Shown piece after piece: positions 25,106 through 58,723 of a stretch of 64,000 nucleotides of DNA (position 1 is its first letter; the number at the start of each line of letters is the position of its first letter). Source of the stretch: Flavobacterium johnsoniae (GTDB taxonomy: Bacteria; Bacteroidota; Bacteroidia; Flavobacteriales; Flavobacteriaceae); the NCBI RefSeq assembly GCF_030388325.1, contig NZ_CP103794.1:1116001-1180000 (forward strand). The letters run 5' to 3'. Position numbers and translations under genes: made by a program. The notes beneath the pieces are model-generated. The model had not been told where the DNA came from. It was given only the letters and a program-made list of their open reading frames with translations, and did not search any database.

Positions 25106-25510
25106 TTATTTGGTAATGCTGTTTTTTAATTCTTCAATTGAAATCTCAAAAGTATCGGCGTATTTCTGCAAAATTTTATGACTTAATGTTGCAAAAACAC
25201 TTGGTTTAAAATGTCTTTTTACGCGCCATTTCCAAAAACCTACATAACTAGACAAAATAGTAAGATCCATTTTGTTGACTTCCATAAAATACACAATCGG
25301 ACTTGCTTCGCCATTTAAAACTTGTTGTTTGGCATCGGCAATTCTTTCGTTTATTTCGTCGATAGAATTTGAAAGTGCAATTGTTTTGGGTTCCCAGCCA
25401 GTGCTTAATGTTGTGGTATAATTGCCATTTTCATCTGTAGCGTACAAAAGCTCTTTTACGTTGTTTTTTGTTAAGTTACTTTGATCCTGAGGTACTTTAT
25501 CTTTTTCCAT
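25106..25510 (-). CDS. Small conserved-looking cytoplasmic protein of the pigment locus, unknown
   Basis: 134 residues, no signal peptide or TM segment. The middle part (FMEVNKMDLTILSSYVGFWKWRVKRHF) and the C-terminal helix pair (LSHKILQKYADTFEISIEEL) suggest a small helical protein with a DNA-binding-like or adaptor-like end. I do not recognise a family. Its stop codon directly abuts the start of the BtrH-like gene, so both are probably made in fixed ratio and may interact. Confidence 0.65.
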   Translation of the reverse strand: MEKDKVPQDQSNLTKNNVKELLYATDENGNYTTTLSTGWEPKTIALSNSIDEINERIADAKQQVLNGEASPIVYFMEVNKMDLTILSSYVGFWKWRVKRHFKPSVFATLSHKILQKYADTFEISIEELKNSITK

Positions 25511-43030: not shown

Positions 43031-44716
43031 TTACCAGAACTTAACATAAAGCGCCACAATAATCAGTAATGTAATTACGATTAAAACCGTAGTTTGCGGC
43101 TGTACTTTGAACATTCCAGGTTCTGTCTCGAATGCTTTTGGGTTTACTTTTGGACCAGCGAAACTCATCAAGATCATCACCAACATTGTGAAGAAGAATG
43201 ATAATCCCATACAAATGTGGAATGGAATTTCGAAAGCTCCTTTTCCGTTAGGGTAAGCTGTGTATAAAAGTGTATCGTTTCCAAATAAAGCAGGAGCATA
43301 TTCGTTGAATAAAACAGATAATAAGAATCCTAAAATTACCCCAACAATTGCTGCAGCTCCAGTAGTTCTTTTCCAGAACATACCTAAAAAGAACATTGCG
43401 AAAACTCCAGGGCTAATAAATCCAGTGTATTTTTGGATGTAAGTGAATCCTCCAACACCACCAATTCCTAAAACGTCATTCCAAGTAAATAAAACAGCTA
43501 AAAGCATTGCTGCAAAAACGGCAAGTCTACCAATGTTTACCTGTTGTTTTTCACCAGCTTCTTTTTGAATGTATTTTTTATGAATATCTAATGTATAAAT
43601 TGTAGAAATACTGTTTACTTTTCCAGCCAAAGAAGCTACAATTGCTGCAGTTAAAGCCGCAACAGAAAGTCCTTTTAATCCAGTTGGAAGGAAGGTTAAT
43701 ACAGCAGAATAAGCACCATCTTTTCCTCCAACTAATTGTGGTAAATGTCCGTTTGTGTATAAAACATAAGCAGCAATTCCAGGAAGCATTACGATAAGCG
43801 GCATTAATAATTTTAACATACCAGCAAATAAAATACCTGTACGAGCTGTTTGTAAATCTGCTCCAAGTGCTCTTTGCGTAATGTATTGGTTACATCCCCA
43901 GTAGTTTAAGTTGATGATCCAGATACCAGCAGCATAAGATAACAATCCTGGGAAAGTTAAATATTTATCGATTTCTAATTGTGAAGAAGTTGCAGTTGGT
44001 TTTGGAATAATCATTTTGAAGTGCTCCGGAGCTTCTTTCATTAAAACTTTGAAACCAGCAATTGCATTTTCACCAACACCAAAGTATTGACCAACTGTTG
44101 TCAAAGCGATATAAGAAGTTACCAAACCTCCGATAATCAATACAGCAACCTGAATTACGTCTGTATACGCCACAACTTTCATTCCTCCAAGAGAAATAAA
44201 TAAAGCAAAAACAGCCAATCCGATCATGATTGCGTGAAGATATTCTCCTCCAGCAAGACCGTTAATCGCAACAGCTCCTAAATAAAGAATCGAAGTTAAG
44301 TTTACAAAAACATACAAAAACAACCAGAAAACCGCCATAATCAAAGCAGTAGATTCGTTGTAACGTGTTTTTAAGAACTGAGGCATAGTGTAAATCTTGT
44401 TTTTAAGATATACAGGAATAAACCATACAGCCACAATAATAAGTGCAATAGCAGCAAGCCATTCGTAAGCAGCAACAGCGATTCCTAAGAAGAAACCTTC
44501 ACCACTCATACCGATGAATTGTTCTGCAGAGATGTTAGAAGCAATAAGAGAAGCTCCAATTGCCCACCATGTTAAATTTCCTTCAGCCAAAAAGTAAGCT
44601 TTAGCATCTTGTTCGTCTTGTTTACGTTTGCGGTAAACCGTGTAACCGTAGACCGAGACTACGATAAAATAGATAATAAAAACCGCATAATCTGCGAAAG
44701 CGAGGTTTTGGTTCAT
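43031..44716 (-). CDS. Sodium/sugar symporter (SSS family), probably for L-arabinose
   Basis: 561 residues with 13-14 TM helices of the solute:sodium symporter family (vSGLT type). LTWWAIGASLIASNISAEQFIGMSGEG is the sodium-site TM1, followed by GGMKVVAYTDVIQV and AGKVNSISTIYTLDI. Galactose genes lie upstream and fucose genes downstream, yet its own promoter carries the 21-bp palindrome shared by araR, GH51 and araB (44883-44903), which points to arabinose uptake. It is monocistronic, with its own terminator. Confidence 0.82.
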   Translation of the reverse strand: MNQNLAFADYAVFIIYFIVVSVYGYTVYRKRKQDEQDAKAYFLAEGNLTWWAIGASLIASNISAEQFIGMSGEGFFLGIAVAAYEWLAAIALIIVAVWFIPVYLKNKIYTMPQFLKTRYNESTALIMAVFWLFLYVFVNLTSILYLGAVAINGLAGGEYLHAIMIGLAVFALFISLGGMKVVAYTDVIQVAVLIIGGLVTSYIALTTVGQYFGVGENAIAGFKVLMKEAPEHFKMIIPKPTATSSQLEIDKYLTFPGLLSYAAGIWIINLNYWGCNQYITQRALGADLQTARTGILFAGMLKLLMPLIVMLPGIAAYVLYTNGHLPQLVGGKDGAYSAVLTFLPTGLKGLSVAALTAAIVASLAGKVNSISTIYTLDIHKKYIQKEAGEKQQVNIGRLAVFAAMLLAVLFTWNDVLGIGGVGGFTYIQKYTGFISPGVFAMFFLGMFWKRTTGAAAIVGVILGFLLSVLFNEYAPALFGNDTLLYTAYPNGKGAFEIPFHICMGLSFFFTMLVMILMSFAGPKVNPKAFETEPGMFKVQPQTTVLIVITLLIIVALYVKFW

Positions 44717-44846: not shown

Positions 44847-44875
44847 CAAATGTAAAATAAAAATTTATAAATCAA
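44847..44875 (-). promoter_or_regulatory. Promoter of the symporter gene
   Basis: On the minus strand a TTG (complement of CAA 44873-44875) is followed after 18 bases by TACATTTG (complement of 44847-44854), a full Bacteroidota -33/-7 pair. The leader to the symporter start is about 125 bases. The AraR-type palindrome lies immediately upstream. Confidence 0.65.
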
Positions 44876-44882
44876 CTATCAG

Positions 44883-44903
44883 CAAATGTGTTTTTTACAT
44901 TTA
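44883..44903. promoter_or_regulatory. AraR-type operator upstream of the symporter
   Basis: CAAATGT-N7-ACATTTA, a 21-bp palindrome with the same half-sites and spacing as those at 50342, 50729, 54521 and 54610. It lies just upstream of the symporter's -33 element. Confidence 0.7.
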
Positions 44904-44958
44904 TCTAATGGTAATTCTGTTAAATTTTACTTTTTTGACTTCATTCATCTTATAATTC

Positions 44959-46017
44959 TTAAGCTTTAACCAGACTTTTATAATGCACTTCAGACAATTG
45001 TCTTAAAATTTCAGCACTTTTTTCGGGTGTAATATCACGTTGCGATTCGCCCAACATTTCGTATCCAACCATAAATTTTTTTACTGTTGCCGATCTTAAC
45101 AAAGGCGGATAAAAATGCATGTGGAAATGCCATTCAGGATGATCTAGACCATCTGTTGGAGATTGGTGAATTCCTGAAGAATATGGAAAAGAAGTATTGA
45201 ATAAATTATCGTACTTAGTCGTTAATTGCTTTAGAATTTTAGCGAAAGCAGCACTTTCTTCAGCAGTAAAATTGGTGATTTTGTTTACCGCTCTTTTGCT
45301 TACAATCATGGTTTCGTAAGGCCAGATTGCCCAAAAAGGAACTAAAGCTACAAAATGATCGTTTTCGATTACGATTCTTTCTCCAGCTTTCAATTCAGCT
45401 TCAACATAATCTTCTAAAAGTGTTCTTTTATTTTTATCGTAATATGATTTTAAGCTATTTTGTGTTTTTTCAACCTGCGTTGGCAACGAAGACTGTGCCC
45501 AAATTTGTCCGTGCGGATGCGGATTGCTACAACCCATTACGCTTCCTTTATTTTCAAAAATCTGAACGTGATTAATGTATTTTATATTTCCTAAATCTGT
45601 GTATTCTCTCTGCCAAGTTTTGATAATATTTTCGATATCGGCAATTTCCATTTCTGGAAGAGTCAAATCGTGACGTGGAGAAAAACAAACTACTCTAGAA
45701 ATTCCTTGTTCTGGTTTTGCTTTAAAAAAAGTATGTTTGATATCATCTTCAAAAATAATTTCATCCTGTTTCATTGCGGCAAAATCATTTTCAAAAACAA
45801 AACTGCTTTCGTATGCTGGATTATTTACGCCATTTGCACGAACATTTCCTGGACATAAATAACATGTCGGATCGTATTTTGGAAGTTGTTCTGTTGAAAT
45901 GGTTTCATTTTGCCCCTGCCAAGGACGTTTTGCACGATGTGGCGAAACTAATACCCATTCGTTAATCAATGGATTGAAGCGTCTGTGCGGATCTTCGTTA
46001 ATGTCAAAATTTTTCAT
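44959..46017 (-). CDS. galT: Galactose-1-phosphate uridylyltransferase
   Basis: 352 residues. The catalytic HxHxQ motif appears in MGCSNPHPHGQIWAQSSLP, with the nucleotide-binding N-terminal RRFNPLINEWVLVSPHRAKRPWQG and zinc-site residues CYLCPG. The C-terminal GIHQSPTDGLDHPEWHFHMHFYPPLLRSATVKKF is equally conserved. It exchanges galactose-1-phosphate with UDP-glucose in the Leloir pathway. It is the last gene of galM-galK-galT, 17 bases after galK. No epimerase (galE) is in the window. Confidence 0.95.
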   Translation of the reverse strand: MKNFDINEDPHRRFNPLINEWVLVSPHRAKRPWQGQNETISTEQLPKYDPTCYLCPGNVRANGVNNPAYESSFVFENDFAAMKQDEIIFEDDIKHTFFKAKPEQGISRVVCFSPRHDLTLPEMEIADIENIIKTWQREYTDLGNIKYINHVQIFENKGSVMGCSNPHPHGQIWAQSSLPTQVEKTQNSLKSYYDKNKRTLLEDYVEAELKAGERIVIENDHFVALVPFWAIWPYETMIVSKRAVNKITNFTAEESAAFAKILKQLTTKYDNLFNTSFPYSSGIHQSPTDGLDHPEWHFHMHFYPPLLRSATVKKFMVGYEMLGESQRDITPEKSAEILRQLSEVHYKSLVKA

Positions 46018-46034
46018 TGTAGTGTGTTGTGGTG

Positions 46035-47195
46035 TTAAAGTAGCGTTGTTCCGTTTGAGATTTTTACATCATAGAATTTTAATTCAATTCCAAATGTATC
46101 TAAATAAAGTTTCGAAAACTTACTTTTTACCTCATTTTCATGTCCTTTTTTAACTAAATTAATAGTGCAACCTCCGAAACCGCCGCCCATTAGCCTTGAG
46201 CCAATAATTGCGTCATCTTCTTTTGCCGTATCAACAAGCATATCTAATTCTTCACAGCTTACCTCATATTCTTTAGATAAACCATAATGTGTTTCAAAAA
46301 GCAATTCGCCCAAAAGTTCGATGTTTCCTGCGTCTAAAGCTTCGCACGCTTTTATTACGCGATTAATTTCTTTTACAACAAAATGAACTCGGTCAAAAAC
46401 TTTCTCGCTCATTTTATCTTTCAGACTTAAAATTTGTTCTACAGAAGAATCTCTAAAACTTTTTACTTCTGGAAAATGACTTTTTATGATAGATAAACCT
46501 TCTTCACATTCAATTCTTCTCGTATTATATTCTGAAGTAAAAAGCGAATGTTTTACATTAGAATCAAACAGAATCAAAGAATAATCTTTGAAATCGGCGT
46601 TGTGATATTCAAAATCTAAAGTATTGCAATCCAGTTTTATTACTTTATTTTCCAAACCATGAACGCTCGAAAACTGATCCATAATTCCGCAATTGATTCC
46701 AACCCAATGTTCTGCTTTTTGTCCTAATAAAGAAATATCAACTTTTTCAATTTTTAAATCAAAAAGAGATTTGATTCCGAAAATGGTTCCGCATTCTAAA
46801 GCCGCAGAAGAAGATAATCCAGAACCAACCGGAATATTACTGCTGAAAACACAGTTGAAACCTTCAAACGAAAATCCGTTATCTTGCAATTGTTTAATTA
46901 CGCCTCGAATGTAATTTGTCCAAACGACATCGCTCAATTTTACTTCTTTAGTCAAATCGATTTCAAATTCTTCGTTCAAATCGATGGCGATTATTTTAGA
47001 AGTTTTAGTGTTGTTTTTAGAAAAAGCAAAACAAATTACTTTGTCAATTGCTGCAGGCAAAACATAACCGTCATTGTAGTCAATATGTTCTCCGATAATG
47101 TTAATTCTACCTGGAGAAAGTACCGTTTTTTCTGGAGAAGAACCGAAAGATTTTTCGAAAAAAGTAACGGTATTTTGTATTAAAATATCATTCAT
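46035..47195 (-). CDS. galK: Galactokinase
   Basis: 386 residues of the GHMP kinase family. The galactose signature is GRINIIGEHIDYNDGYVLPAA, the ATP loop NIPVGSGLSSSAALECG, the catalytic Asp lies in GINCGIMDQFSSVHG, and the C-terminal GHMP motif is GSRLMGGGFGGCTINLV. It phosphorylates alpha-D-galactose at C1. Short spacers on both sides place it in an operon between galM and galT. Confidence 0.95.
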   Translation of the reverse strand: MNDILIQNTVTFFEKSFGSSPEKTVLSPGRINIIGEHIDYNDGYVLPAAIDKVICFAFSKNNTKTSKIIAIDLNEEFEIDLTKEVKLSDVVWTNYIRGVIKQLQDNGFSFEGFNCVFSSNIPVGSGLSSSAALECGTIFGIKSLFDLKIEKVDISLLGQKAEHWVGINCGIMDQFSSVHGLENKVIKLDCNTLDFEYHNADFKDYSLILFDSNVKHSLFTSEYNTRRIECEEGLSIIKSHFPEVKSFRDSSVEQILSLKDKMSEKVFDRVHFVVKEINRVIKACEALDAGNIELLGELLFETHYGLSKEYEVSCEELDMLVDTAKEDDAIIGSRLMGGGFGGCTINLVKKGHENEVKSKFSKLYLDTFGIELKFYDVKISNGTTLL

Positions 47196-47231
47196 TATAT
47201 AGTTAGTTGTATTGTGGTTTTTAGGATTTTA

Positions 47232-48284
47232 TTAATTTAAACTTTCAAATTTGTAAAGCGTTTTTTGCGTGTATTCTTCGCTTTTTTTCAAAACGGCATT
47301 CGGAAAATGAGCGTGATTTGGCGCATCTGGAAAATTTTGTGTTTCAAAACAAATTCCGCTTTGCGCATTATAATCTACATTTTCTTTTCCTTTTAATTTT
47401 CCGAAACAATTTCCGCCTACATATATATGTACACTCGGCTGATCGGTATAAACATTCATTCTTAAATTATTTTTCAAACTAATTAGTTGCGCCACAATTT
47501 CAGTTTTAGAATTTACAACGAATGAATTGTCAATTGGAAACGGACAGTTTTTTGGATTTCTGAAATCAAAATCATGATTTGCCAAATCGGTATAATTTCC
47601 TGTCGGAATATTATCAGAATTTGTTTCCAGCATTTTTGCCGATTTGATAAACATTTGCTGTTCTAAAACATTCGCGTCGTGTCCGTCAAGATTAAAATAA
47701 CTATGATGCGTCAAATTGACAACCGTATCTTCTGTTGACGTTGCTTTATATTCTAATTTTAATTCATTTTCTTCTGTCAAAGTATAAGTCAAATAAACCG
47801 TCATTTCTCCAGGAAAATTCTCGTCTAAATGTGCGCTCAAAAGCCCAAAAGTAATCGATGGATTTTCGTCAGAAGTCGCATTAACGACACGCCAAGCTTT
47901 TCTTCCAAATCCCATAACTCCGCCGTGAAGCGTGTTGCCGTTATTGTTTCCATCAAGCTGAAATTTGTTTCCATCCAAACTAAAAGACCCTTTATGAATA
48001 CGTCCGGCATAACGCCCGACAGTTGTTCCGAAATAAGGAGCGCTTGGCAAATTATACGATTCTAAATACGCTTCTAAATTGTCAAACCCTAATACAACAT
48101 CGGTTAATTTTCCATTTACAGGAATTTGAATTGAGGTTACAGTTGCACCATAATTAATGATTTGAACTTTCATTCCGTTTTTATTAACTAATTCAAAAGA
48201 ATAAATTTCTTCTTTATTAGGCATTAAACCGAATAATTTGCAATTATGAATCTCATTTAAATGCGATATGTGTTTTATTTCCAT
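47232..48284 (-). CDS. galM: Aldose 1-epimerase (galactose mutarotase), cytoplasmic
   Basis: 350 residues from ATG 48284; an upstream in-frame start would read through the promoter. The mutarotase catalytic residues appear in GRYAGRIHKGSFSLDG, TLHGGVMGFGRKAW, NLTHHSYFNLDGHD (His) and GICFETQNFPDAPNH (Glu). There is no signal peptide, so it is cytoplasmic, unlike the second epimerase at 58832. It is the first gene of the gal operon, divergent from the GntR regulator, whose operator-like palindrome lies 55 bases upstream. Confidence 0.92.
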   Translation of the reverse strand: MEIKHISHLNEIHNCKLFGLMPNKEEIYSFELVNKNGMKVQIINYGATVTSIQIPVNGKLTDVVLGFDNLEAYLESYNLPSAPYFGTTVGRYAGRIHKGSFSLDGNKFQLDGNNNGNTLHGGVMGFGRKAWRVVNATSDENPSITFGLLSAHLDENFPGEMTVYLTYTLTEENELKLEYKATSTEDTVVNLTHHSYFNLDGHDANVLEQQMFIKSAKMLETNSDNIPTGNYTDLANHDFDFRNPKNCPFPIDNSFVVNSKTEIVAQLISLKNNLRMNVYTDQPSVHIYVGGNCFGKLKGKENVDYNAQSGICFETQNFPDAPNHAHFPNAVLKKSEEYTQKTLYKFESLN

Positions 48285-48308
48285 ATAATTTTTAACAAAA
48301 ATGAAATC

Positions 48309-48316
48309 CAAAAGTA
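48309..48316 (-). promoter_or_regulatory. Putative -7 element of the gal operon
   Basis: CAAAAGTA on the plus strand is TACTTTTG on the minus strand (TAnnTTTG), 25 bases upstream of the galM start. The GntR-type palindrome at 48340-48353 occupies the region where the -33 element would be; no clear TTG is present. Confidence 0.45.
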
Positions 48317-48327
48317 GAAACATTCTT

Positions 48328-48335
48328 TATATTTG
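48328..48335 (+). promoter_or_regulatory. -7 element of the GntR regulator gene
   Basis: TATATTTG matches the TAnnTTTG consensus on the plus strand, 50 bases before ATG 48386. The palindrome at 48340-48353 begins five bases downstream and would cover the transcription start, which suggests autorepression. Confidence 0.55.
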
Positions 48336-48339
48336 CATA

Positions 48340-48353
48340 CCAGTACCTACCAG
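48340..48353. promoter_or_regulatory. GntR-type operator between galM and the regulator gene
   Basis: CCAGTACCTACCAG has a symmetric core GTA-N2-TAC with an outer C...G pair, the GT...AC geometry typical of GntR-family operators. The half site CCAGT is also directly repeated at a 10-base step. It lies between two divergent -7 elements, so one bound dimer could control both the gal operon and the regulator. Confidence 0.55.
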
Positions 48354-48385
48354 TTTTTAATATTAATAGTCAAAATGACTTTATT

Positions 48386-49384
48386 ATGAACATCATTTCA
48401 ATTCAAAATAATATTGGTCTTCCAAAATATAAGCAGATTATTCTTTCAATAGAAAAAGCTATAGAAGTAGGAAAATTAATAAAAGGCGATCGGCTTCCGT
48501 CGGTAAATAAAGTCTGTCTAGCATTTTCGTTGTCGCGAGATACGGTCTTATTAGCGTATGATGAACTCAAGAAAAGAGGAATTATTTATGCCATTCCTGG
48601 AAAAGGATATTATGTTAAAAGTATTGAAATCACTATAACTCAGAAGGTTTTTTTGCTTTTTGATGAGCTAAATATTTTTAAAGAAGATATTTATAATTCG
48701 TTTTTGCAGAATATTGGAAAAAATGTTCAGGTTGATATTTTCTTTCATCATTTTAATGTTCAAGTTTTTAAAAAACTGATTAATGACAGCAATGGAAATT
48801 ACACCAAATATATTATCATGCCAACCAACTTAAACGATATAGTTGATTCGATAAAAACCCTACCAGTAAATGATGTAATTATTTTAGACCAGACCAATTC
48901 GGACTTAAAAATGTTTCCAGCGATTTACCAAAATCACCAGAGAGATATTTATGAAGGTTTAATAAAAGGAAAATCCAGATTATCAAAATACAAAAAACTG
49001 ATTCTTATTTTTCCAGGTTTTAGAGAACCTCCCGGAATGAAAATTGGTTTCGAATATTTTTGTAAAGAATATAAATACGATTATGAAATTATTTCCGATT
49101 TCAGCAATCAATCTATTGCGCTCGGAGATTTGTATATTATTCCGCACGATCGCGATTTGCTTTCGGTTATAGAAAATGCAATGGGAAGAAATTTGAAATT
49201 AGGAGAAGATTTCGGAATCATTTCTTATAATGAAACACCACTGAAGAAAATCGCCGCAAACGGAATTACCACAATTTCGACCAATTTTGAATTAATGGGA
49301 AAAATTCTCGCGGATATGGTTTTCAATGGAAAAAAAGAGCAGATCGAAAATAGATCTGCTCTTATATTGAGGAATTCTTTGTGA
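48386..49384 (+). CDS. GntR-family regulator with LacI-type sugar-binding domain
   Basis: 332 residues. The N-terminal winged helix-turn-helix of GntR type reads LPKYKQIILSIEKAIEVGKLIKGDRLPSVNKVCLAFSLSRDTVLLAYDELKKRGI, followed by a degenerate periplasmic-binding-protein domain (GLIKGKSRLSKYKKLILIFPGF, then LKLGEDFGIISYNETPLKKIAANGITTIS). This layout is typical of Bacteroidota sugar regulators. Divergence from galM and the palindrome in the shared promoter argue that it represses galMKT until galactose binds. The last ten codons form a strong hairpin (49335-49363). Confidence 0.85.
   Translation: MNIISIQNNIGLPKYKQIILSIEKAIEVGKLIKGDRLPSVNKVCLAFSLSRDTVLLAYDELKKRGIIYAIPGKGYYVKSIEITITQKVFLLFDELNIFKEDIYNSFLQNIGKNVQVDIFFHHFNVQVFKKLINDSNGNYTKYIIMPTNLNDIVDSIKTLPVNDVIILDQTNSDLKMFPAIYQNHQRDIYEGLIKGKSRLSKYKKLILIFPGFREPPGMKIGFEYFCKEYKYDYEIISDFSNQSIALGDLYIIPHDRDLLSVIENAMGRNLKLGEDFGIISYNETPLKKIAANGITTISTNFELMGKILADMVFNGKKEQIENRSALILRNSL
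49335..49363. terminator. Hairpin inside the 3' end of the GntR coding region
   Basis: AAGAGCAGATC (49335-49345) pairs perfectly with GATCTGCTCTT (49353-49363) around a 7-base loop, entirely within coding sequence about 20 bases before the stop. The preceding A-run (on the minus strand, a T-run after the stem) would make it a better terminator for minus-strand transcripts arriving from araR than for the GntR gene itself. Confidence 0.5.
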
Positions 49385-49489
49385 AATAAAAATAACCCGT
49401 TGGGAATAATTATTTTTTAACACATAGAAATATAGATTTTGGTTTTAAATAAAAAAGAGGTAAAAGAAAAAACCAGTTTTCACACATAG

Positions 49490-49505
49490 TCCCGAAGCTT
49501 CGGGA
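49490..49505. repeat. 16-bp perfect palindrome in the GntR-araR spacer
   Basis: TCCCGAAGCTTCGGGA is self-complementary over all 16 bases, in the 212-base spacer between two convergent genes. Surrounding words (ACACATAGAAATATAG, TGTATCTATGTATT) also form loose complements. I see no gene or other feature in this spacer. Confidence 0.6.
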
Positions 49506-49596
49506 TGTATTTAAAAAAGTGAAACGTCTTGTATGCACAAAGAAAAGCTATGTATCTATGTATTAAATTAAATTTTGTTCAATTTCAACCATAAGG

Positions 49597-50286
49597 TTAT
49601 AAATTAAGCACAAAATTGTTTAATAATTTTTCTTCGTATTTCTCTTTATTAAAAGTATATAAATAAGAGCCTTTTCGAGAAGACTGCATATCTTTTTCGT
49701 CTAGTTTATTTAAGATTTCAAGAGAATTGATTTTGCTGATGAAATTTCTTTTATCCAATTCTTTGCTCAAAATGGCTTCATACAATTCTAAAAGCTGACG
49801 CATAGTGAATTTTTCTGGAAGCAATTCAAAACCAATTGGTTTGATCGAAGTTTTGTAACGAAGACGTTTAATAGCATTTTGAACCATTTCATTATGGTCA
49901 AAAATCAGATTAGGCGCGTCGTTAATAGGAAACCATTCTGCATGATAATTTTGAATCAATTCTTCATTATGGTTTTCGATATTAATCAAAGCAAAGTAAG
50001 AAACCGAAATGGTTCTTTCAACAGGATCACGATCGATTTCACTGTAAGCATACAATTGCTCCATATAAATGTCGTTTAGACCCGTATAAGTGTTTAAGAT
50101 TCTTGTGGCTGCAGCATCTAGCACTTCATCGCGTTTTAGAAAACCTCCAATCAAAGACCATTTTCCCTTTTCAGGTTCAAAATCTCTCTGAATTAAAAGT
50201 ATTTTCAGACCTTCGTGATCAAATCCGAAAATGATGCAGTCAACCGCCAATAAGACTTTATCAGCAGAGCTATAACTATTTAGCAT
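49597..50286 (-). CDS. araR: AraR, Nudix-type transcriptional regulator of arabinose genes
   Basis: 229 residues. A Nudix fold (CIIFGFDHEGLKILLIQRDFEPEKGKWSLIGGFLKRDE) is followed by a C-terminal winged helix (FTMRQLLELYEAILSKELDKRNFISKI). The Nudix box lacks the catalytic Glu pair: after GGFLKRDEVLDAAATR the sequence is ILNTYTG where an active enzyme has REUxEE. It is therefore a ligand sensor, as in the NrtR/AraR regulators described for Bacteroides. Divergence from GH51 and a palindrome upstream of its own gene (50342-50362) support control of the arabinose genes. Confidence 0.85.
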   Translation of the reverse strand: MLNSYSSADKVLLAVDCIIFGFDHEGLKILLIQRDFEPEKGKWSLIGGFLKRDEVLDAAATRILNTYTGLNDIYMEQLYAYSEIDRDPVERTISVSYFALINIENHNEELIQNYHAEWFPINDAPNLIFDHNEMVQNAIKRLRYKTSIKPIGFELLPEKFTMRQLLELYEAILSKELDKRNFISKINSLEILNKLDEKDMQSSRKGSYLYTFNKEKYEEKLLNNFVLNL

Positions 50287-50341
50287 ATATAATTAATTTG
50301 GATGGTAAATATATAAACTTCTTAAAACGTTTCATAATTTA

Positions 50342-50362
50342 TTAATGTTGATTTTACACTTA
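50342..50362. promoter_or_regulatory. AraR-type operator upstream of araR
   Basis: TTAATGT-N7-ACACTTA, 55 bases upstream of the araR start codon. The spacer 50287-50827 (541 bases) holds this site, the one at 50729 and a possible minus-strand -7 element (TACCTTTG, complement of 50466-50473). I see no gene in it. Confidence 0.65.
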
Positions 50363-50728
50363 TGTTAAAATTGAAACAAATAACAAGCTGCATTGATTGA
50401 TTTATCTACTAAAATCAGGTTTTTTAAGTCCAAAATTTCTTCAATTATATCCCAAAAATACGAGCCAAAGGTAGAAACATTTTCAAAAGAGCATTAAACA
50501 GTTAGCTATATTTTGTAATTGAATGCTTAAAAGTTACATTTTTTGTTACAAAGCGATGCTATTTTATATTTTTTTGTCAATTTTTTGAGATTTCTAACTT
50601 TTCAAAAATCGTATAAAATTCCTTTGTTAGTACTGCTTTTCGAATATTTCTATTGCTAAATCTGTTTTTTACAACCAGTTGTTCTGCGATTTTAATTTTT
50701 TTATGAGACTTTTTTTTCTTTAAATTTA

Positions 50729-50749
50729 CAAATGTTAAACAAACACTTA
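50729..50749. promoter_or_regulatory. AraR-type operator upstream of the GH51 gene
   Basis: CAAATGT-N7-ACACTTA, about 80 bases before ATG 50828. It shares half-sites and 7-base spacing with four other sites in the window. No clear TAnnTTTG element was found between it and the gene. Confidence 0.65.
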
Positions 50750-50827
50750 TAAAATCTAAAAATCACAAATCGTTATAAAATATGTAAACCACCGTATTTT
50801 TTAACAACCAAAAACCACAAAAAACTT

Positions 50828-52372
50828 ATGAAAAAACCACTTTTATTACTGGTTATGGCGCTTTGCATGCAAACTATAACCGCCCAAAAAGATGCTGTAA
50901 TTATTGCCGTGAAGAGTGATGCATCTGCACCAACAATCAATAAAAATATTTATGGTCATTTTGCCGAACATTTAGGACATTGTATTTACGGTGGATTTTT
51001 TGTTGGAGATACTTCTAAAATTCCAAATACAAACGGAGTGCGAAATGATATTATTAAAGCATTGAAAGATTTAAAAATTCCGAATTTAAGATGGCCCGGC
51101 GGATGTTTTGCCGATACATACCATTGGAAAGACGGAATTGGGCCAAAAGAACAGCGACCGACAATTGTAAATCAATGGTGGGGAGGAGTTACAGAAGATA
51201 ATAGTTTTGGAACACATGATTTTTTGAATATGTGCGAATTGCTTGGCGCTGAACCTTATTTGTCAGGAAATGTTGGTAGCGGAACCGTTCAAGAATTAGC
51301 AGACTGGGTTCAGTATACGAATTTTGGAGGTAAAAGTCCGATGAGTGATCTTCGAAGAAAAAACGGACGAACAGAACCTTGGAAAGTAAAATATTGGGGA
51401 ATTGGAAATGAAGCTTGGGGTTGCGGCGGAAATATGACAGCAGATTATTATGCAAATGAATACCGCAAGTTTGCCACTTTTATGTCAGATTGGAGTAATA
51501 CGGGAGGAATTACAAGAATTGCTTCAGGATCAAATAGTTCAGATTATAATTGGACAGAAGTTTTAATGAAAAATATTCCGTTGCATATGTTAGGTGGATT
51601 GGGAGTTCATCACTACGCTGTAATAAATTGGGACAAAAAAGAATCAGATGTTAATTTTACAGAAAAAGAATATTTCCTGACGATGCAATCTGCATTAAAA
51701 ATGGAAGAATTAGTAACTAAACATGCCGCAATTATGGATAAATACGATCCTGAGAAAAAAGTGGCAATGATTGTAGACGAATGGGGCGGTTGGTACGAAG
51801 TTCAAAAAGGAACAAATCCAGGGTTTTTATATCAGCAAAATACAATGCGTGACGCGGTTTTGGCTGGGGCAACTTTGAATATTTTCAATAATCATTCAGA
51901 TCGAGTTCGTATGGCAAATTTGGCGCAATGTGTAAATGTACTTCAAGCCGTAATTTTAACTGACAAAGCTAAAATGATTACGACTCCAACTTACAGCGTT
52001 ATGAAAATGTACAGCGTGCATCAAGATGCAAAATTGCTTCCAGTAGATTTCAAATCGCCTTCTTATACTTATAATGGCCAAACAATTCCAGCAGTTTCGG
52101 CTTCGGTTTCAAAAGATAATGCTGGAGCTATTCATATTTCATTGGTAAATATTGATGCTGTAAATAAAAACAAAATCGAAATTGACACTAAAGATCTTGG
52201 CGTGAAAAATTTTACTGGAACAATTATTACATCTCAAAAATTACAAGATTATAATTCTTTCGAAAATCCGAATAAAATTGTTCCTGTTGCTTTTAAAGGT
52301 TTTGAAAACAAAAAAGGAAAGTTAGAAATAACACTTCCACCTTTTTCTGTATTGGTTTTAGAAGGAAAATAA
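50828..52372 (+). CDS. Secreted GH51 alpha-L-arabinofuranosidase
   Basis: 514 residues with signal peptide MKKPLLLLVMALCMQTITAQ. The GH51 (beta/alpha)8 barrel shows LRWPGGCFADTYHWKDGIG, acid/base Glu in YWGIGNEAWGCGGNM and nucleophile Glu in MIVDEWGGWYEV, followed by a C-terminal beta domain (HISLVNIDAVN). It removes alpha-L-arabinofuranosyl units from arabinan, arabinoxylan or oligosaccharides, here in the periplasm. It is nine bases from the GH127 gene. An AraR-type palindrome upstream indicates arabinose induction. Confidence 0.93.
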   Translation: MKKPLLLLVMALCMQTITAQKDAVIIAVKSDASAPTINKNIYGHFAEHLGHCIYGGFFVGDTSKIPNTNGVRNDIIKALKDLKIPNLRWPGGCFADTYHWKDGIGPKEQRPTIVNQWWGGVTEDNSFGTHDFLNMCELLGAEPYLSGNVGSGTVQELADWVQYTNFGGKSPMSDLRRKNGRTEPWKVKYWGIGNEAWGCGGNMTADYYANEYRKFATFMSDWSNTGGITRIASGSNSSDYNWTEVLMKNIPLHMLGGLGVHHYAVINWDKKESDVNFTEKEYFLTMQSALKMEELVTKHAAIMDKYDPEKKVAMIVDEWGGWYEVQKGTNPGFLYQQNTMRDAVLAGATLNIFNNHSDRVRMANLAQCVNVLQAVILTDKAKMITTPTYSVMKMYSVHQDAKLLPVDFKSPSYTYNGQTIPAVSASVSKDNAGAIHISLVNIDAVNKNKIEIDTKDLGVKNFTGTIITSQKLQDYNSFENPNKIVPVAFKGFENKKGKLEITLPPFSVLVLEGK

Positions 52373-52381
52373 TACGATAGA

Positions 52382-54361
52382 ATGAAAAAGTATATTTTTT
52401 ATTTATTGATTTTCTGCTTGTCGATTTTGATTTCCTGTAAAGAAACCAAAAACAATTTGGTGCAATCTGATGATAAAACGTCTGTGTTAAAAGCGGGATA
52501 TCAAATCGAACCGGTTAACATTCAAAATGTAAAATTGACCGATTCTTTTTGGCTTCCAATTATCAAAAGAGTACAAGAAATCACGATTCAATATGCGATA
52601 AAAAAATGCGATGAAGAAGGACGTTTTGAGAATTTTTTAATTGCAGGAAAACAAAAAACAGGAACAACAAGAGGCGAAATGCCTTTTGATGATACCGATG
52701 TTTATAAGATTATCGAAGGCGCTTCGAATACTTTAATCAGTGCACCAAATCCGAAACTGGAAAGAGTTCTGGATTCGATGATTGCCATTGTAAAAATTGG
52801 TCAGGAACCAGACGGATATATTACAACTTGGAGAACTATAAATCCAGCAAAACCGCCTGCAACTTGGGTTCCCGTTATTGAAGGAAAACGTTGGGAATCG
52901 TTGCAGATTAGCCACGAATTATATAATCCAGGACATTTAATTGAAGCAGCAATTGTACATTATGAAGCAACTGGAAAAACTAATTTTCTGGAAATCGCCA
53001 TAAAAGCTGCCGATATGCTGGTTCGAACTTTTGGCGATAATCCAGGACAAGTAAAAGGCGTTCCGGGACATCAAATTGTAGAAACGGGTTTGCTGAAATT
53101 GTATCAGATTACGGGAAAAAAAGAATATCTAAATCTGGCAAAATATTATTTAGACAATCGCGGAAATCCAAATAATCATAAATTGTATGGAGAATATGCG
53201 CAAGATCATATGCCAATTTTAGAACAAAAAGAAGCTGTTGGTCATGCCGTAAGAGCGGTGTATATGTACGCGGGAATGACAGATATTGTGGCTTTGATGA
53301 AAGATAAAGGTTATGAAAATGCCGTAAATAATCTGTGGGAAAACATGGTAAACAAAAAAATGTATATCACAGGCGGAATTGGTTCCAGACACGACGGCGA
53401 AGCTTTTGGAGCAAATTACGAATTGCCAAATTTAACCGCATATAATGAAACGTGTGCTGCAATTGGCGATGTATATTGGAATCACAGATTGCATAATTTA
53501 TACGGAGCTTCTAAGTATTTTGATGTTATCGAAAGAACAATGTACAACGGATTAATATCGGGAATTTCGCTTGACGGAAAACAATTTTTCTACCCAAATG
53601 CGTTGGAAGCAGATGGCGTTTACAAATCAAATCGCGGCTCTTGCACACGACAAGGTTGGTTTGACTGTTCTTGCTGTCCAACCAATTTGATTCGTTTTAT
53701 TCCGTCAATTCCGGGATTGATTTATTCGAAAACAAACGATGTTTTGTATGTCAATTTATATGCTTCGAACAATGCCTCTTTCCAATTAGGGAAAACAGAT
53801 TTACAGATTTCACAACAGACTTCTTATCCTTGGAATGGGAAAATTGCGATTTCGGTCAATCCAAAAAAAGAAAGTCAGTTTACCATTAAATTTCGTGTTC
53901 CGGGTTGGTCTAGAAATGAAGTTTTGCCTGGAGATTTATACAGTTATAAAAAGGCTTCAACTCAAAAAGCAACAATTAGTTTAAATGGAGAAACTCTAGC
54001 AATTCAGCCAGAAAATGGTTATTTCAACATTAATAGAAAGTGGAAAAAAGGAGATAAAATTAGCCTTAATCTTCCGATGGATGTTCAAGAAGTGCAGACG
54101 AGTTCAAAAGTTGTAACGAATGCAAACAAAGTTTCTTTAGAATACGGACCAATAGTTTATGCGGTTGAAGAAATGGATAACAAAAACAACTTCGATAAAA
54201 TTGATATAAGCGCTTCTGATACTTTCAAAGTAAAAAAAGAAGCTAATTTATTGCAAGGAGTAAATGTAATTGAGAACTCAAAGTTGAAAGCAATTCCATA
54301 TTATTCTTGGTCAAATCGAGGAGTTGGAAAAATGAAAGTTTGGTTAGATTATAAGAACTGA
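52382..54361 (+). CDS. GH127 beta-L-arabinofuranosidase lipoprotein
   Basis: 659 residues. The lipoprotein signal LLIFCLSILISCKET is followed by an (alpha/alpha)6 barrel of the former DUF1680 family: GEMPFDDTDVYKIIEGAS, GHLIEAAIVHYEATG and YNETCAAIGDVYWNHRL. The zinc-thiolate active site is visible in GWFDCSCCPTNLIRF, whose Cys cluster includes the nucleophile. The C-terminal half is beta-sandwich. It removes beta-L-arabinofuranose, for example from hydroxyproline-rich glycoproteins, complementing the alpha-specific GH51 just upstream. Both enzymes feed the araBDA genes that follow. Confidence 0.92.
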   Translation: MKKYIFYLLIFCLSILISCKETKNNLVQSDDKTSVLKAGYQIEPVNIQNVKLTDSFWLPIIKRVQEITIQYAIKKCDEEGRFENFLIAGKQKTGTTRGEMPFDDTDVYKIIEGASNTLISAPNPKLERVLDSMIAIVKIGQEPDGYITTWRTINPAKPPATWVPVIEGKRWESLQISHELYNPGHLIEAAIVHYEATGKTNFLEIAIKAADMLVRTFGDNPGQVKGVPGHQIVETGLLKLYQITGKKEYLNLAKYYLDNRGNPNNHKLYGEYAQDHMPILEQKEAVGHAVRAVYMYAGMTDIVALMKDKGYENAVNNLWENMVNKKMYITGGIGSRHDGEAFGANYELPNLTAYNETCAAIGDVYWNHRLHNLYGASKYFDVIERTMYNGLISGISLDGKQFFYPNALEADGVYKSNRGSCTRQGWFDCSCCPTNLIRFIPSIPGLIYSKTNDVLYVNLYASNNASFQLGKTDLQISQQTSYPWNGKIAISVNPKKESQFTIKFRVPGWSRNEVLPGDLYSYKKASTQKATISLNGETLAIQPENGYFNINRKWKKGDKISLNLPMDVQEVQTSSKVVTNANKVSLEYGPIVYAVEEMDNKNNFDKIDISASDTFKVKKEANLLQGVNVIENSKLKAIPYYSWSNRGVGKMKVWLDYKN

Positions 54362-54392
54362 AAATAGATTGTAGAAACAAGAGACAAGATTT

Positions 54393-54439
54393 CACAGATT
54401 AAAAGGATTAAAAAAGGATTTAAATTCTTTTAATCTGTG
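54393..54439. repeat. Inverted repeat of the CACAGATTAAAAG family
   Basis: CACAGATTAAAAG (54393-54405) pairs perfectly with 54427-54439. It is the same arm family that forms the outer arms of the composite elements near 38.2, 41.8 and 42.8 kb, here without the inner 67-bp unit. It follows the GH127 gene by about 30 bases and may act as a processing or stop signal; the tail after it is A-rich rather than T-rich. Confidence 0.7.
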
Positions 54440-54520
54440 GCAAAAAAATAAAATTCAGTACGATTTTAAAGCACGATTCAATAACGATTTGAAGATTAAG
54501 CTGAAATAATCGCAACATTA

Positions 54521-54541
54521 TAAATGTATTGTTAACATTTA
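54521..54541. promoter_or_regulatory. AraR-type operator, distal site upstream of araB
   Basis: TAAATGT-N7-ACATTTA with perfect 7-bp arms; the match extends to 8 bp (ATAAATGT / ACATTTAT). Its centre is 89 bases upstream of the centre of the proximal site (54610-54630). Between them 54556-54585 holds a looser palindrome (AAATGC-N9-GCATTT) with a similar half-site. Confidence 0.7.
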
Positions 54542-54609
54542 TTTTTTAAAAAGATGCTAAAATGCTGTTTTAATGCATTTATAGCAAAAATTAATTATGC
54601 AATTTCAAT

Positions 54610-54630
54610 TAAGTGTTTTTTGTACACTTA
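54610..54630. promoter_or_regulatory. AraR-type operator overlapping the araB promoter
   Basis: TAAGTGT-N7-ACACTTA, perfect 7-bp arms. It overlaps the TTG (54620-54622) of the araB promoter, so binding would block RNA polymerase. Confidence 0.72.
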
Positions 54631-54653
54631 TAAAATATTTATATCTATATTTG
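54620..54653 (+). promoter_or_regulatory. Promoter of the araBDA operon
   Basis: TTG at 54620-54622 and TATATTTG at 54646-54653 are separated by 23 bases, within the range known for Flavobacterium promoters. The likely transcription start is near 54660, giving a short leader before ATG 54678. It is the strongest promoter-like sequence of the arabinose region. Confidence 0.65.
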
Positions 54654-54677: not shown

Positions 54678-56369
54678 ATGAAAAATTATGTAATAGGATT
54701 GGACTACGGAACAGATTCTGTTCGTGCGGTGCTGATTGACGCTGAAAATGGACAAGAGTTGGCATCGAATGTTTCTCATTACAAAAGATGGAAAAACAAA
54801 CAATATTGTGACGCATCGATAAACCAATTTCGTCAGCATCCTTTGGATCATATCGAAGGATTGGAAATTACAATTCAAAATGTAGTTAAAGAAAGTAAAG
54901 TTGATCCTTCTTTAGTAAAAGGAATTTGTATTGACACAACGGGATCTTCTCCGGTTCCAGTTACAAAAGACGGAACGCCATTGGCATTGACAAAAGGTTT
55001 TGAAGAAAATCCAAATGCGATGATGGTTTTATGGAAAGACCATACTTCTATAAATGAAGCAAACGAAATCAACGAATTAGCAGTTAGTTGGGGCGGAGAA
55101 GACGTTACAAAATATGTTGGAGGAATTTATTCTTCGGAATGGTTTTGGGCAAAAATTCTTCACATTGCAAGACAAGATGAAGCAGTTCGAAATGCAGCGC
55201 ACACTTGGATGGAACACTGCGATTTAATGACGTATTTGTTGATTGAAGATAAAGATTTAAAAACCTTCAAAAGAAGCCGTTGCGCAGCTGGACACAAAGC
55301 GATGTGGCATACAGGCTGGAACGGACTTCCTCCAGTTGAATTCTTAGAAAAATTACATCCGTATTTGGCTCAACTTCGCGGAAACTTATATGATGAAACG
55401 TATACATCAGATTTAGTTGCTGGAAAACTAAGTCAAGAATGGGCAGATCGTTTAGGACTTTCGACAGAAACAGTTGTGGCTGTTGGAACTTTTGATGCAC
55501 ATTCTGGAGCAGTTGGAGCTAAAATCGAAGAAAACACTTTAGTTCGCGTTATGGGAACTTCAACTTGTGATATTCTAGTTGGTTCTTATGATGAAGTGGG
55601 AACAAAAACCGTTCGCGGAATCTGCGGACAAGTTGATGGTTCGGTTATTCCAGGATTTATTGGTTTAGAAGCTGGACAATCTGCTTTTGGAGATTTATTG
55701 GCTTGGTACAAAGAACTTTTAATGTGGCCGACAGAACATTTATTAGGTTCTTCAAATCTTTTAAATGATGCTCAAAAAGACCAATTAAGAGAAGAATTCA
55801 GCGATAAATTAATTGTAGAATTAACGAAAGAAGCAGAGAAAATTCCAGTTTCAGAAAGCCTTCCAATTGCCCTAGACTGGATTAACGGACGTAGAACTCC
55901 AGATGCCAATCAGGAAGTGAAAAGCGCGATTTCGAACCTTTCTTTAGGAACAAAAGCGCCTCATATTTTTAAAGCTTTAGTAAACGCAATTTGTTTTGGA
56001 GCGAAGAAAATTGTAGATCGTTTTGAAGAAGAAGGCGTAAAAATTGACAGCGTTATCGGAATTGGCGGTGTGGCTCGTAAATCTCCTTTTATCATGCAGA
56101 CTTTGGCAAACGTTTTAAACAAGCCAATTAAAATTGCAGCTTCAGACCAAACTCCTGCTTTAGGTGCGGCAATTTATGCAGCTGTTGCAGCTGGAATTTA
56201 TCCAAACGTAATCGAAGCAAGCCAAAAAATCGGAAGTGATTTTGATGGAGAATATTTCCCTCAGACCGATAAAGTAGAAGCGTATCATAAACTGCTTTTA
56301 GCATACGAACAATTGAGTGCTTTTGCAGATCCAACCATTAAAATTTCTCAAAATGAGTTCTCTTTATAA
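54678..56369 (+). CDS. araB: Ribulokinase
   Basis: 563 residues of the FGGY kinase family. The N-terminal YVIGLDYGTDSVRAVLIDAENG is the phosphate-binding start; MGTSTCDILVG and GQSAFGDLLAWYK are ribulokinase-type. The C-terminal FGGY signature region is GVKIDSVIGIGGVARKSPFIMQTLAN with DQTPALGAAIYAAVAAG. It phosphorylates L-ribulose made by AraA. The 3' end overlaps araD by 17 bases, so the two are translationally coupled. Confidence 0.94.
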   Translation: MKNYVIGLDYGTDSVRAVLIDAENGQELASNVSHYKRWKNKQYCDASINQFRQHPLDHIEGLEITIQNVVKESKVDPSLVKGICIDTTGSSPVPVTKDGTPLALTKGFEENPNAMMVLWKDHTSINEANEINELAVSWGGEDVTKYVGGIYSSEWFWAKILHIARQDEAVRNAAHTWMEHCDLMTYLLIEDKDLKTFKRSRCAAGHKAMWHTGWNGLPPVEFLEKLHPYLAQLRGNLYDETYTSDLVAGKLSQEWADRLGLSTETVVAVGTFDAHSGAVGAKIEENTLVRVMGTSTCDILVGSYDEVGTKTVRGICGQVDGSVIPGFIGLEAGQSAFGDLLAWYKELLMWPTEHLLGSSNLLNDAQKDQLREEFSDKLIVELTKEAEKIPVSESLPIALDWINGRRTPDANQEVKSAISNLSLGTKAPHIFKALVNAICFGAKKIVDRFEEEGVKIDSVIGIGGVARKSPFIMQTLANVLNKPIKIAASDQTPALGAAIYAAVAAGIYPNVIEASQKIGSDFDGEYFPQTDKVEAYHKLLLAYEQLSAFADPTIKISQNEFSL

Positions 56370-57054
56370 AGATTTAAAACAAGAATGTTACGAAGCCAAC
56401 ATGCAATTAAATGCACTGAATTTGGTGGTGTATACTTTCGGAAATGTGAGCGCTGTTGACAGAAAAAATGGTGTTTTTGCCATTAAACCAAGCGGTGTTC
56501 CTTACGAAGATTTAAAACCGGAAGATATCGTAATTGTCGATTTTGATAATAACGTTATTGAAGGAACTATGCGTCCGTCATCAGACACGAAAACGCATGC
56601 TTATTTATATAAAAACTGGCCAAATATTGGAGGCGTTGCACATACGCACGCAACGTATTCTGTAGCTTGGGCGCAGTCTCAGCAAGATATTCCAATTTTT
56701 GGAACAACGCATGCAGATCATTTAACAGCTGATATTCCGTGCGCACCGCCAATGGCAGATCATTTAATCGAAGGAAACTACGAACACAATACGGGAATTC
56801 AGATTCTAGATTGTTTCAAAGAAAAGAATCTTTCTTACGAAGAAGTAGAAATGGTTTTAATTGGAAATCACGGTCCGTTTGCATGGGGAAAAAACGCTGC
56901 AAAAGCAGTTTACAACAGTAAAGTTTTAGAAGTTGTGGCAGAAATGGCTTATCTGACTTTACAAATCAACCCAAACGCACCAAGATTAAAAGATTCATTA
57001 ATAAAGAAACATTACAACCGCAAACACGGAAAAGATTCGTATTACGGACAGTAG
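56353..57054 (+). CDS. araD: L-ribulose-5-phosphate 4-epimerase
   Basis: 233 residues from ATG 56353 (MSSLYKDLKQECYEANMQL), inside the araB 3' end; the longer frame start at 56317 is not family-like. The class II aldolase/adducin fold with its zinc His residues is visible in VAHTHATYSVAWAQ and FGTTHADHLTADIPCAPP and in VLIGNHGPFAWGKNA. It converts L-ribulose-5-phosphate to D-xylulose-5-phosphate, which enters the pentose phosphate pathway. Confidence 0.94.
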   Translation: MSSLYKDLKQECYEANMQLNALNLVVYTFGNVSAVDRKNGVFAIKPSGVPYEDLKPEDIVIVDFDNNVIEGTMRPSSDTKTHAYLYKNWPNIGGVAHTHATYSVAWAQSQQDIPIFGTTHADHLTADIPCAPPMADHLIEGNYEHNTGIQILDCFKEKNLSYEEVEMVLIGNHGPFAWGKNAAKAVYNSKVLEVVAEMAYLTLQINPNAPRLKDSLIKKHYNRKHGKDSYYGQ

Positions 57055-57128: not shown

Positions 57129-57214
57129 TTGAAACAAATAATAAATAACAAAAGTTTTCCGAATTTCAACAACTTGAAACTTGAAACAAAGAAAACTTGA
57201 AACAAAATAAAAAA

Positions 57215-58723
57215 ATGATAGATATATCTCAAAAAGAAGTATGGTTTGTAGTAGGAAGCCAAGAATTATATGGTGAAGAAACGCTTAGAAAAGTAGCAGA
57301 ACATTCACAGATTATTGCAAAAGGATTAGATGCTTCGTCTTCAATTCCGGTAAAAGTAGTTTATAAAGATGTGGTAAAATCACCTTCGCAGATTCTTGAT
57401 GTTTGTTTGGCAGCAAACTCTGCTAAAAACTGTATCGGAATTATTGCTTGGATGCATACTTTCTCTCCAGCAAAAATGTGGATTGGCGGATTAAATATCC
57501 TTAAAAAACCATTGTGCCACTTGCATACACAATACAATGCTGAAATTCCGTGGGGAAGCATCGACATGGATTTCATGAATTTAAATCAATCGGCACACGG
57601 AGATCGTGAATTCGGTTTTATCATGTCTAGATTACGTAAAAAACGTAAAGTTGTAGTTGGACATTGGGAAGACCAAAGAGTTCAAAAACAATTAGGAATC
57701 TGGTCAAGAGTGGTTTTAGGATGGGACGAACTTCAAAACCTAAAAGTAGCTCGTATTGGAGACAATATGCGTGAAGTTGCCGTAACAGAAGGTGACAAAG
57801 TGGAAGCGCAAATTCGTTTCGGAATGTCTGTAAACGGATATGATTCTTCAGATGTTACAAAGCACATTGAAAAAGTAACAGACAAAGAATTAAACGATTT
57901 ATTAGCAGTTTACGAACAATCATACAACTTAACTGACTCTTTAAAAGAAGGCGGTGCACAAAGAAGTTCATTAGTTGAAGCAGCAAAAATCGAATTAGGA
58001 TTAAGAGCTTTCCTTGAAGAAGGAGGTTTCGGAGCTTTCACAGATACATTTGAAAACCTTGGTGTTTGGAAACAATTACCAGGAATCGCAACCCAAAGAT
58101 TAATGGCCGATGGTTATGGTTTTGGTGGAGAAGGAGACTGGAAAACAGCTGCAATGGTTCGTGCATTAAAAGTAATGTGTGTAGGTTTAGAAGGAGGAAC
58201 TTCTTTCATGGAAGATTATACGTACCACTTCACGCCACAAAAATCATATGTTTTAGGTTCTCACATGTTAGAAATCTGTCCATCTATTGCTGACGGAAAA
58301 CCTTCTTGCGAAGTTCATCCGTTAGGAATTGGAGGAAAAGAAGATCCAGCTCGTTTGGTGTTTAATTCGCCTGCAGGAGACGCAATCAATGTTTCTTTGG
58401 TTGATATGGGAACACGTTTCCGTTTAATTGTAAACGAAGTTGAAGCAATTAAACCAATGGCAGAATTACCAAAACTTCCAGTTGCACGTGTTCTTTGGGA
58501 TTGTAAACCAAATTTAGAAGTTGCTGCAACAGCTTGGATTTTGGCTGGTGGAGCGCATCACACAGTTTACAGTCAGTCGATTACAACAGAATATATGGAA
58601 GATTTCGCAGACATCGCAGGAATCGAATTATTAGTTATTGACGAAAAAACAACGGTAAGAGAGTTTAAAGATAAAATTAACGCCAACGAAGCATATTTCC
58701 ATTTGTTTCAGCATGGACTATAA
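57215..58723 (+). CDS. araA: L-arabinose isomerase
   Basis: 502 residues from ATG 57215 ([24 protein letters not shown]). An in-frame TTG at 57197 lies within spacer repeats and is rejected. The family blocks are [48 protein letters not shown], the metal-ligand Glu in [14 protein letters not shown] and [24 protein letters not shown]. It interconverts L-arabinose and L-ribulose in the cytoplasm. Length matches the family. Confidence 0.95.

Follow-up and report, generated by a model that had tools for sequence, protein, structure and literature searches.

Five palindromes in the arabinose region of Flavobacterium johnsoniae, very probably operators of the Nudix-type repressor AraR, and an AraR sister clade beside galactose genes

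We analysed a 64,000-nucleotide stretch of the Flavobacterium johnsoniae genome (contig NZ_CP103794.1, positions 1,116,001 to 1,180,000; hereafter the window, numbered from its first letter), which carries five 21-bp palindromes in a region rich in arabinose genes. These palindromes are very probably AraR operators: this Nudix-type repressor, whose gene lies at 49597-50286, would repress the arabinose genes until L-arabinose is present. The reference system is AraR of Bacteroides thetaiotaomicron (BtAraR, BT0354; Chang et al. 2015, PMC4666351), which binds N7-palindrome sites and is released from them by L-arabinose. AraR was reported there from 17 Bacteroides and 15 Prevotella species, and our data support the extension of the known mechanism to Flavobacterium as a new group: a sugar switch of gut Bacteroides and Prevotella would be carried to Flavobacterium and related genera. 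In the literature searched, outside of which most subscription papers lie, we found no report of AraR in Flavobacterium, of an F. johnsoniae arabinose regulon, or of galactose regulators of the NrtR/Nudix type; the AraR proteins of PMC5507952 are LysR and GntR types from Halomonas.

RESULTS

Five intergenic palindromes with a 7-base centre

A reading made earlier from the sequence alone (the sequence-only reading) had listed five palindromes, each with a 7-base centre, upstream of arabinose genes or of araR itself. All five were found as written, and all are intergenic, standing before the symporter gene, araR, the GH51 gene and araB (Table 1), in a window whose intergenic share is 8.4%, i.e. 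5,394 bases, by the open reading frame (ORF) map. They account for seven strand-matches to the consensus YWARTGT-N7-ACAYTTA at five places, two of them being perfect palindromes, where 0.04 matches per window are expected (100 shuffles, none of which reached seven). For the loose form of the motif, WARTGT-N7-ACAYTW (core form RTGT-N7-ACAY), a Markov-1 model gave a mean of 0.024 sites in the intergenic bases (500 runs). Spacings of 2 to 15 other than 7 gave no intergenic match in the window, and N10 and N14 one coding match each. A sixth, looser match (25183-25203) lies within a predicted gene and is probably due to chance.

The motif in other AraR loci

The motif was compared across the best 80 of at least 584 confirmed AraR loci (1,583,298 bases, 163,707 of them intergenic by the ORF map), which by title come mostly from Flavobacterium and other Flavobacteriaceae, with some Saprospirales and other Bacteroidetes. 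The loose form was counted at 202 intergenic and 8 coding positions, in 72 of the 80 loci, while spacings 2-6 and 8-15 yielded 0 or 1 intergenic match each. In these loci the motif is conserved and stands mostly outside coding sequence; conservation and spread over coding regions are two of the three points on which the sequence-only reading had proposed to be judged. Because close relatives share sites by descent, the 39 lowest-identity loci (L144-L182, at most 75%) provide the fairer figure: 48 intergenic N7 matches versus 2, in 32 of the 39 loci.

The reversed pattern, used as a control, gave one intergenic match with N7 in the 80 loci, and 20, 8 and 6 with N2, N6 and N12, respectively; all ten N2 matches listed are TTTACATTTGTAAA-like junctions of a -7 box and a half-site. 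The short form RTGT-N5-ACAY gave 49 intergenic matches, all 25 listed being inner registers of N7 sites. An N9 control signal (48) was not used; 30 of the 48 overlap an N7 site.

Genes that adjoin a site and are transcribed away from it (where two genes diverge from a site, both were counted) were named by BLAST to the window genes and to Pfam-typed genes. By number of loci, these were araR (65), GH51 (33), SusC (29), araB (26) and the SSS symporter (25), followed by transketolase (10), transaldolase (3), GH127 (one) and a few unnamed genes. Among 60 genomes, including that of the window, AraB was found in 11 (E 1e-150) and AraR in 12 (E 1e-60), AraR being present in all 11 AraB genomes.

The oligonucleotides shifted by BtAraR (two sites at BT0356, one at BT0365) contain three predicted sites, all GTGT-N7-ACAC (PMC4666351), and the window sites fit this gel-shift-proven operator once it is relaxed to RTGT-N7-ACAY. 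Together with the recurrence of the same kinds of gene in distant AraR loci, this match argues that the motif is the AraR operator in Flavobacterium, as the sequence-only reading had supposed. It provides a tested search motif for arabinose genes in Flavobacterium and relatives.

The regulator

By sequence and domain content, the 49597-50286 protein is BtAraR-like: its closest solved relative is BtAraR (5bs6, E 3e-68), the best NCBIfam model being NtrR, far below its cut-off. The Nudix catalytic box is degenerate, the REUXEEXGU stretch reading RILNTYTGL in the translation, with its three Glu replaced. NrtR proper (ADP-ribose sensing, NAD genes) has the same architecture but a different ligand pocket.

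An alignment of 79 AraR rows (the window plus 78 of the 80 loci, two loci having no row) showed that all 79 keep R34, R86 and H131, which bind the hydroxyl groups of arabinose in the crystal structure of BtAraR (PMC4666351), and likewise the helix residues K179, R180 and N181. Position 184 is S or N in 75 rows (S, N or T in 76); at position 204, 65 rows have R and 11 have K, and all 79 have K at position 205. The same paper describes six DNA-contact residues (K179, R180, N181, K184, K204 and R205) as invariant in Bacteroidetes AraR. This invariance fails in the flavobacterial AraR clade, because K184 is replaced by S or N in the 75 rows mentioned above.

The F. johnsoniae system otherwise resembles that of BtAraR in its 21-bp N7 palindrome, its Nudix and winged-helix domains, its arabinose residues, its tandem sites before the ara operon and the presence of GH51 and SusC/D genes among the targets, which here are predicted (PMC4666351). 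It differs in half-site position 4, which is A or G here and G in the three B. thetaiotaomicron oligonucleotide sites, in residue 92 (V92T) and in the ara genes, which are split over several promoters here whereas they form one araMPRDAB operon in B. thetaiotaomicron.

Promoter geometry and proposed mechanism

Bacteroidetes promoters have a TTG box at -33 and a TAnnTTTG box at -7. Both boxes were predicted from sequence, and counts were made on non-redundant promoters. TAnnTTT[AG] was found at offset -9 from the operator in 22 of 32 GH51, 10 of 28 SusC and all 9 transketolase promoters; TTG at -33 was counted in 10, 11 and 8 of these, respectively. In this register, a dimer would cover the GH51 start point; in the window, the predicted -7 box TAAATTTA (50721-50728) lies immediately upstream of the GH51 operator. 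TAnnTTTG stood at +34 or +35 from araB operators in 10 of 22 cases (both araB sites counted), and a dimer would therefore cover the -33 region: the proximal araB operator of the window overlaps the expected -33 region of a promoter whose predicted -7 box is TATATTTG (54646-54653).

The register is different at the two remaining targets, with TAnnTTTG at +48 from the symporter operator in 10 of 14 promoters and TAnnTTT[AG] at +48 from the araR operator in 22 of 35 (42 site-gene pairs lie within 75 bp of araR). The window also holds an imperfect second operator-like copy before the symporter gene, absent from the sequence-only reading (Table 1), whose left half (44847-44854, minus strand TACATTTG) doubles as the -7 box predicted for the symporter gene. 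Pairs of sites are seen repeatedly: at araB they are separated by 89 bp, in the window as well as in four listed loci, and at SusC by 99 bp, in four listed loci.

By analogy with BtAraR, we propose that in the absence of L-arabinose an AraR dimer would sit on each operator, with one winged helix per RTGT half-site, and hold down araR, GH51-GH127, araBDA(M) and the symporter gene. Blocking of RNA polymerase is likely, the proximal operator lying on the -33 region at araB, and the GH51 operator over the start point behind the -7 box. L-arabinose, bound by R34, R86 and H131, would swing the winged helices and free the promoters, as in BtAraR.

Points against AraR operators, and other explanations

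Several observations weigh against the assignment of the palindromes to AraR. Across the genome, a single contig of 5,324,536 bases whose scan the sequence-only reading had proposed as a check, the motif is no commoner than its reversed control: 21 versus 23 matches for the loose form, from which the regulon could not be picked out without other evidence, and 503 versus 722 for the full consensus with at most two mismatches. In eight AraR-bearing relatives, the loose form was little enriched, with forward/control counts of 27/24, 15/15, 28/21, 16/7, 14/6, 20/15, 23/12 and 13/9 (12/15 in a relative without an AraR hit). Eight of the 80 AraR loci (L128, L162, L164, L165, L168, L169, L175 and L178) are devoid of an intergenic site; among the 11 relatives' loci, L094 (a 6-kb contig) has no site, and L095 has one at GH51 and none at its araR. 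The window AraR differs from BtAraR by K184S and K204R/R205K (Ser at 184, RK at 204-205), and in the tree BtAraR falls outside the flavobacterial AraR group, weakly (93/61) beside the galactose-linked clade described below. Finally, the promoters predicted for araR and the symporter gene would have the operator on their upstream side. The signal is one of clustering, position and conservation, not of genome-wide enrichment.

The equality of the genome count and its control is what chance AT-rich palindromes would give, yet the spacing test in the 80 loci and the window shuffles rule chance out; the five palindromes are not chance, and we give this explanation practically no weight. It is also very unlikely that the sites belong to another regulator (the GntR-type protein encoded beside the gal genes, a Crp-like factor or an NrtR-type paralogue), AraR being a bystander. 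The symporter operator is indeed situated inside the gal gene cluster, and a GntR gene is found near araR in 6 of the 11 relatives' loci (L088-L093), but the sites accompany araR in 20-kb loci without a recognised gal gene or GntR relative (e.g. L096, L097 and L220-L223), and the motif is that of the proven BtAraR operator (PMC4666351). As for the paralogues, the genome encodes four further NrtR-type proteins (801460-802849, 757298-757954 and 1681228-1681920; two in tandem), all without R34; the 59 kb around them contain no intergenic site with a score of 12 or more (two lie within genes), and no such intergenic operator was found within the 20-kb stretch of the 757-kb paralogue.

If AraR owns the sites, their upstream position at araR and the symporter gene would allow a second mode of action: AraR would block at araB and GH51, while at about -62 to -44 it might activate, or loop with a distant site. 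The +48 boxes and the recurrence of paired sites speak for two modes. However, the promoter boxes are predicted, not mapped, and a Bacteroides araR mutant displayed plain derepression of araM (PMC5061871); we regard a second mode as rather unlikely.

Separately, the 757-kb paralogue adjoins genes read by eye as related to NAD and phosphoribosyl pyrophosphate (PRPP), and one of the four paralogues adjoins a GH3-like end.

Probable distal sites and the pectin locus

Six of the 21 loose sites of the genome are in the window (the five operators and the one in a gene); outside it, 7 are centred between predicted genes and 8 inside them. With either orientation allowed, eight match the full consensus, namely the window's five, 3045444, 4149206 and 4506850 (in a gene). 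Site 4149206 precedes a SusC gene by about 100 bp; the locus also contains SusD, a pectinesterase and a second GH127. This SusC is present in 4 of 6 relatives searched, and in 3 of the 4 it is preceded by TAAATGT-N7-ACATTTA, two of these three SusC relatives being only 65-67% identical; that of G005 (70% identical) has no site before the gene. Site 4172366, before an alpha-rhamnosidase-like gene, recurs among the matches listed in G006 and G015, where its counterparts are 23.1-23.2 kb from the SusC site, as in the F. johnsoniae genome, and site 3045444 (about 125 bp before a pectate lyase gene, with a DUF2157 gene on its other side) recurs among those listed in G015. Recurrence is weak alone, since 4073271 (inside a GH3 gene) and 4193030 recur as well.

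The AraR regulon therefore probably has distal sites too, including that of the pectin-locus SusC, which the same AraR would probably gate. The sequence-only reading had spoken of a local regulon: its local sites and genes stand, and the restriction to them probably does not. This points to control of a plant-polysaccharide locus by a sensor of a single sugar. In B. thetaiotaomicron, AraR represses arabinose genes in vivo and also acts on polysaccharide genes, with BT0366 as activator (Schwalm et al. 2016, PMC5061871). No claim is made for the following candidate sites, which were inspected too: 4193030 (MaoC, at the very end of a predicted gene), 4495843 (BadF-like), 566899 (Zn peptidase), 5016938 (DUF4625/hybrid sensor), 175575 (SusC), 3883160 (GH27) and 3244211 (6-phosphogluconate dehydrogenase).

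A sister clade linked to galactose genes

The part most worth following is a sister clade of AraR, where a repressor family has apparently changed sugar and operator together, with the BtAraR crystal structure at hand. The clade set comprises 30 proteins: those of 28 of 29 loci (L238-L266) with a called ORF, plus L219 (9589-10361) and L098 (10310-12583). In a tree of 77 of 130 rows, a branch with support 98/92 separates the 30 from the rest; 20 of the 29 loci contain galK, and the galK of L219 and of L098 pass TIGR00131. As judged from the tree, the clade is a monophyletic AraR offshoot, mostly beside galK. The L219 protein matched 49 of the 397 genomes of the window's family, taken as Flavobacteriaceae, at E 1e-75 (itself included; part of the 49 were typed). 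In G038, an AraR homologue precedes galK-galT with the site TAAATGTAAATTGTACATTTA, and no AraB hit was obtained.

All 30 clade proteins keep R34, R86 and H131. By contrast, the pocket is changed at F36 (V, I or L in 30 of 30), G48 (S, T or A in 30 of 30) and F129 (L or M, mostly L, in 29 of 30); residue 92 is Cys in 27 and Y97 is Q, H or K in 29. The changes at F36, G48 and F129 would open the wall that packs against arabinose in BtAraR, galactose being arabinose plus C6. Galactose is the presumed ligand, and the clade members are candidate galactose-sensing repressors.

The operators differ too. AAYGT-N7-ACRTT, chosen after viewing the galactose-linked loci, so that its count is descriptive, has 21 intergenic and no coding matches, in 18 of 31 such loci, other spacings giving 0 or 1. 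At half-site base 4 (with T at base 5), A is found in 15 of 18 cases in the clade, versus A in 207 and G in 202 of 416 in AraR loci; G is present in the clade loci L247, L260 and L261. K179, which reads G at this base in BtAraR (PMC4666351), is lost in 30 of 30.

BtAraR R180 intercalates between half-site bases 5 and 6 (oligonucleotide base pairs 8 and 9; PMC4666351), and of 386 half-sites of AraR loci, 380 have T or C at base 5. Gly replaces R180 throughout the 7 genomes of one genus and in the two carriers among the 6 of a second genus, and all nine have a TAAAAGT half-site (L242, L246, L255, L267-L271 and L273; L271 with one deviating half, ACCATTA). In the 28 of 36 loci with a script-read helix (the other eight are R180 by alignment), base 5 was T18 C9 A1 in the 20 R180 loci, of which 14 have a site, and A15 G1 in the 8 G180 loci, all of which have one (L273 is the ninth G180 locus). 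With R180G, base 5 changes from a pyrimidine to a purine, so that YpG becomes RpG, in 9 of 9 genomes; two R180 loci, L247 and L248, each have a site bearing A at base 5 of one half. A single origin of R180G was not rejected (p-AU 0.554), and R180G with TAAAAGT operators may be a single evolutionary event. On balance, we favour a sister clade re-tuned to D-galactose, in which the R180G/base-5 change would be a natural experiment on how an intercalating arginine reads DNA.

Genes of the arabinose region and minor observations

Table 1. Predicted operators and genes of the arabinose region (window coordinates)
Feature	Coordinates	Strand	Remarks
SSS sodium:solute symporter	43031..44716	-	PF00474, TIGR00813
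Imperfect second operator-like copy	44847..44867	.	CAAATGTAAAATAAAAATTTA; weaker match
AraR operator (predicted), symporter	44883..44903	.	166 bp before start codon; motif match
GntR-type protein	48386-49384		beside gal genes
araR	49597..50286	-	Nudix-like domain and NrtR/AraR winged helix; PF00293, PF21906 and PF19368 above cut-offs
AraR operator (predicted), araR	50342..50362	.	55 bp before araR start; putative autoregulation
AraR operator (predicted), GH51	50729..50749	.	78 bp before GH51 start
GH51 alpha-L-arabinofuranosidase	50828..52372	+	PF06964, PF22848
GH127-family hydrolase	52382..54361	+	PF07944; NCBIfam aceric acid hydrolase below cut-off only
Distal AraR operator (predicted), araB	54521..54541	.	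perfect palindrome; 89 bp upstream of proximal operator
Proximal AraR operator (predicted), araB	54610..54630	.	perfect palindrome; 47 bp before start codon
araB, ribulokinase	54678..56369	+	TIGR01234 above cut-off
araD, ribulose-5-phosphate 4-epimerase	56356..57054	+	NF006047 above cut-off
araA, arabinose isomerase	57197..58723	+	NF002795 above cut-off
Aldose 1-epimerase, probable araM	58832..60016	+	PF01263

The symporter probably imports arabinose or an arabino-oligosaccharide; a 69%-identical relative is located behind araB-araD-araA-araM in L096. GH127 is likely on the same transcript as GH51 (9-bp gap), and araA, which has no operator of its own, would be transcribed from the araB promoter.

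In L091 (12310-15026), and also in L092 and L093, an AraR site precedes a transketolase-transaldolase pair (Pfam assignments for L091 only); such sites tie arabinose to the pentose phosphate pathway in relatives. In L114 (10917), L120 (10815) and L123 (11002), the operator sits where araR and gntR converge at their 3' ends, and behind it no gene is called; by eye, the operator DNA of L123 resembles the transketolase promoter of other loci and is perhaps the relic of a lost operon. In L213 and L215 (two genomes of one genus), the match of the AraR homologue crosses a TAA, perhaps just an upstream extension of the match. L228 brings ara and gal genes together, with araA, araD, araR and galK in a row on one strand.

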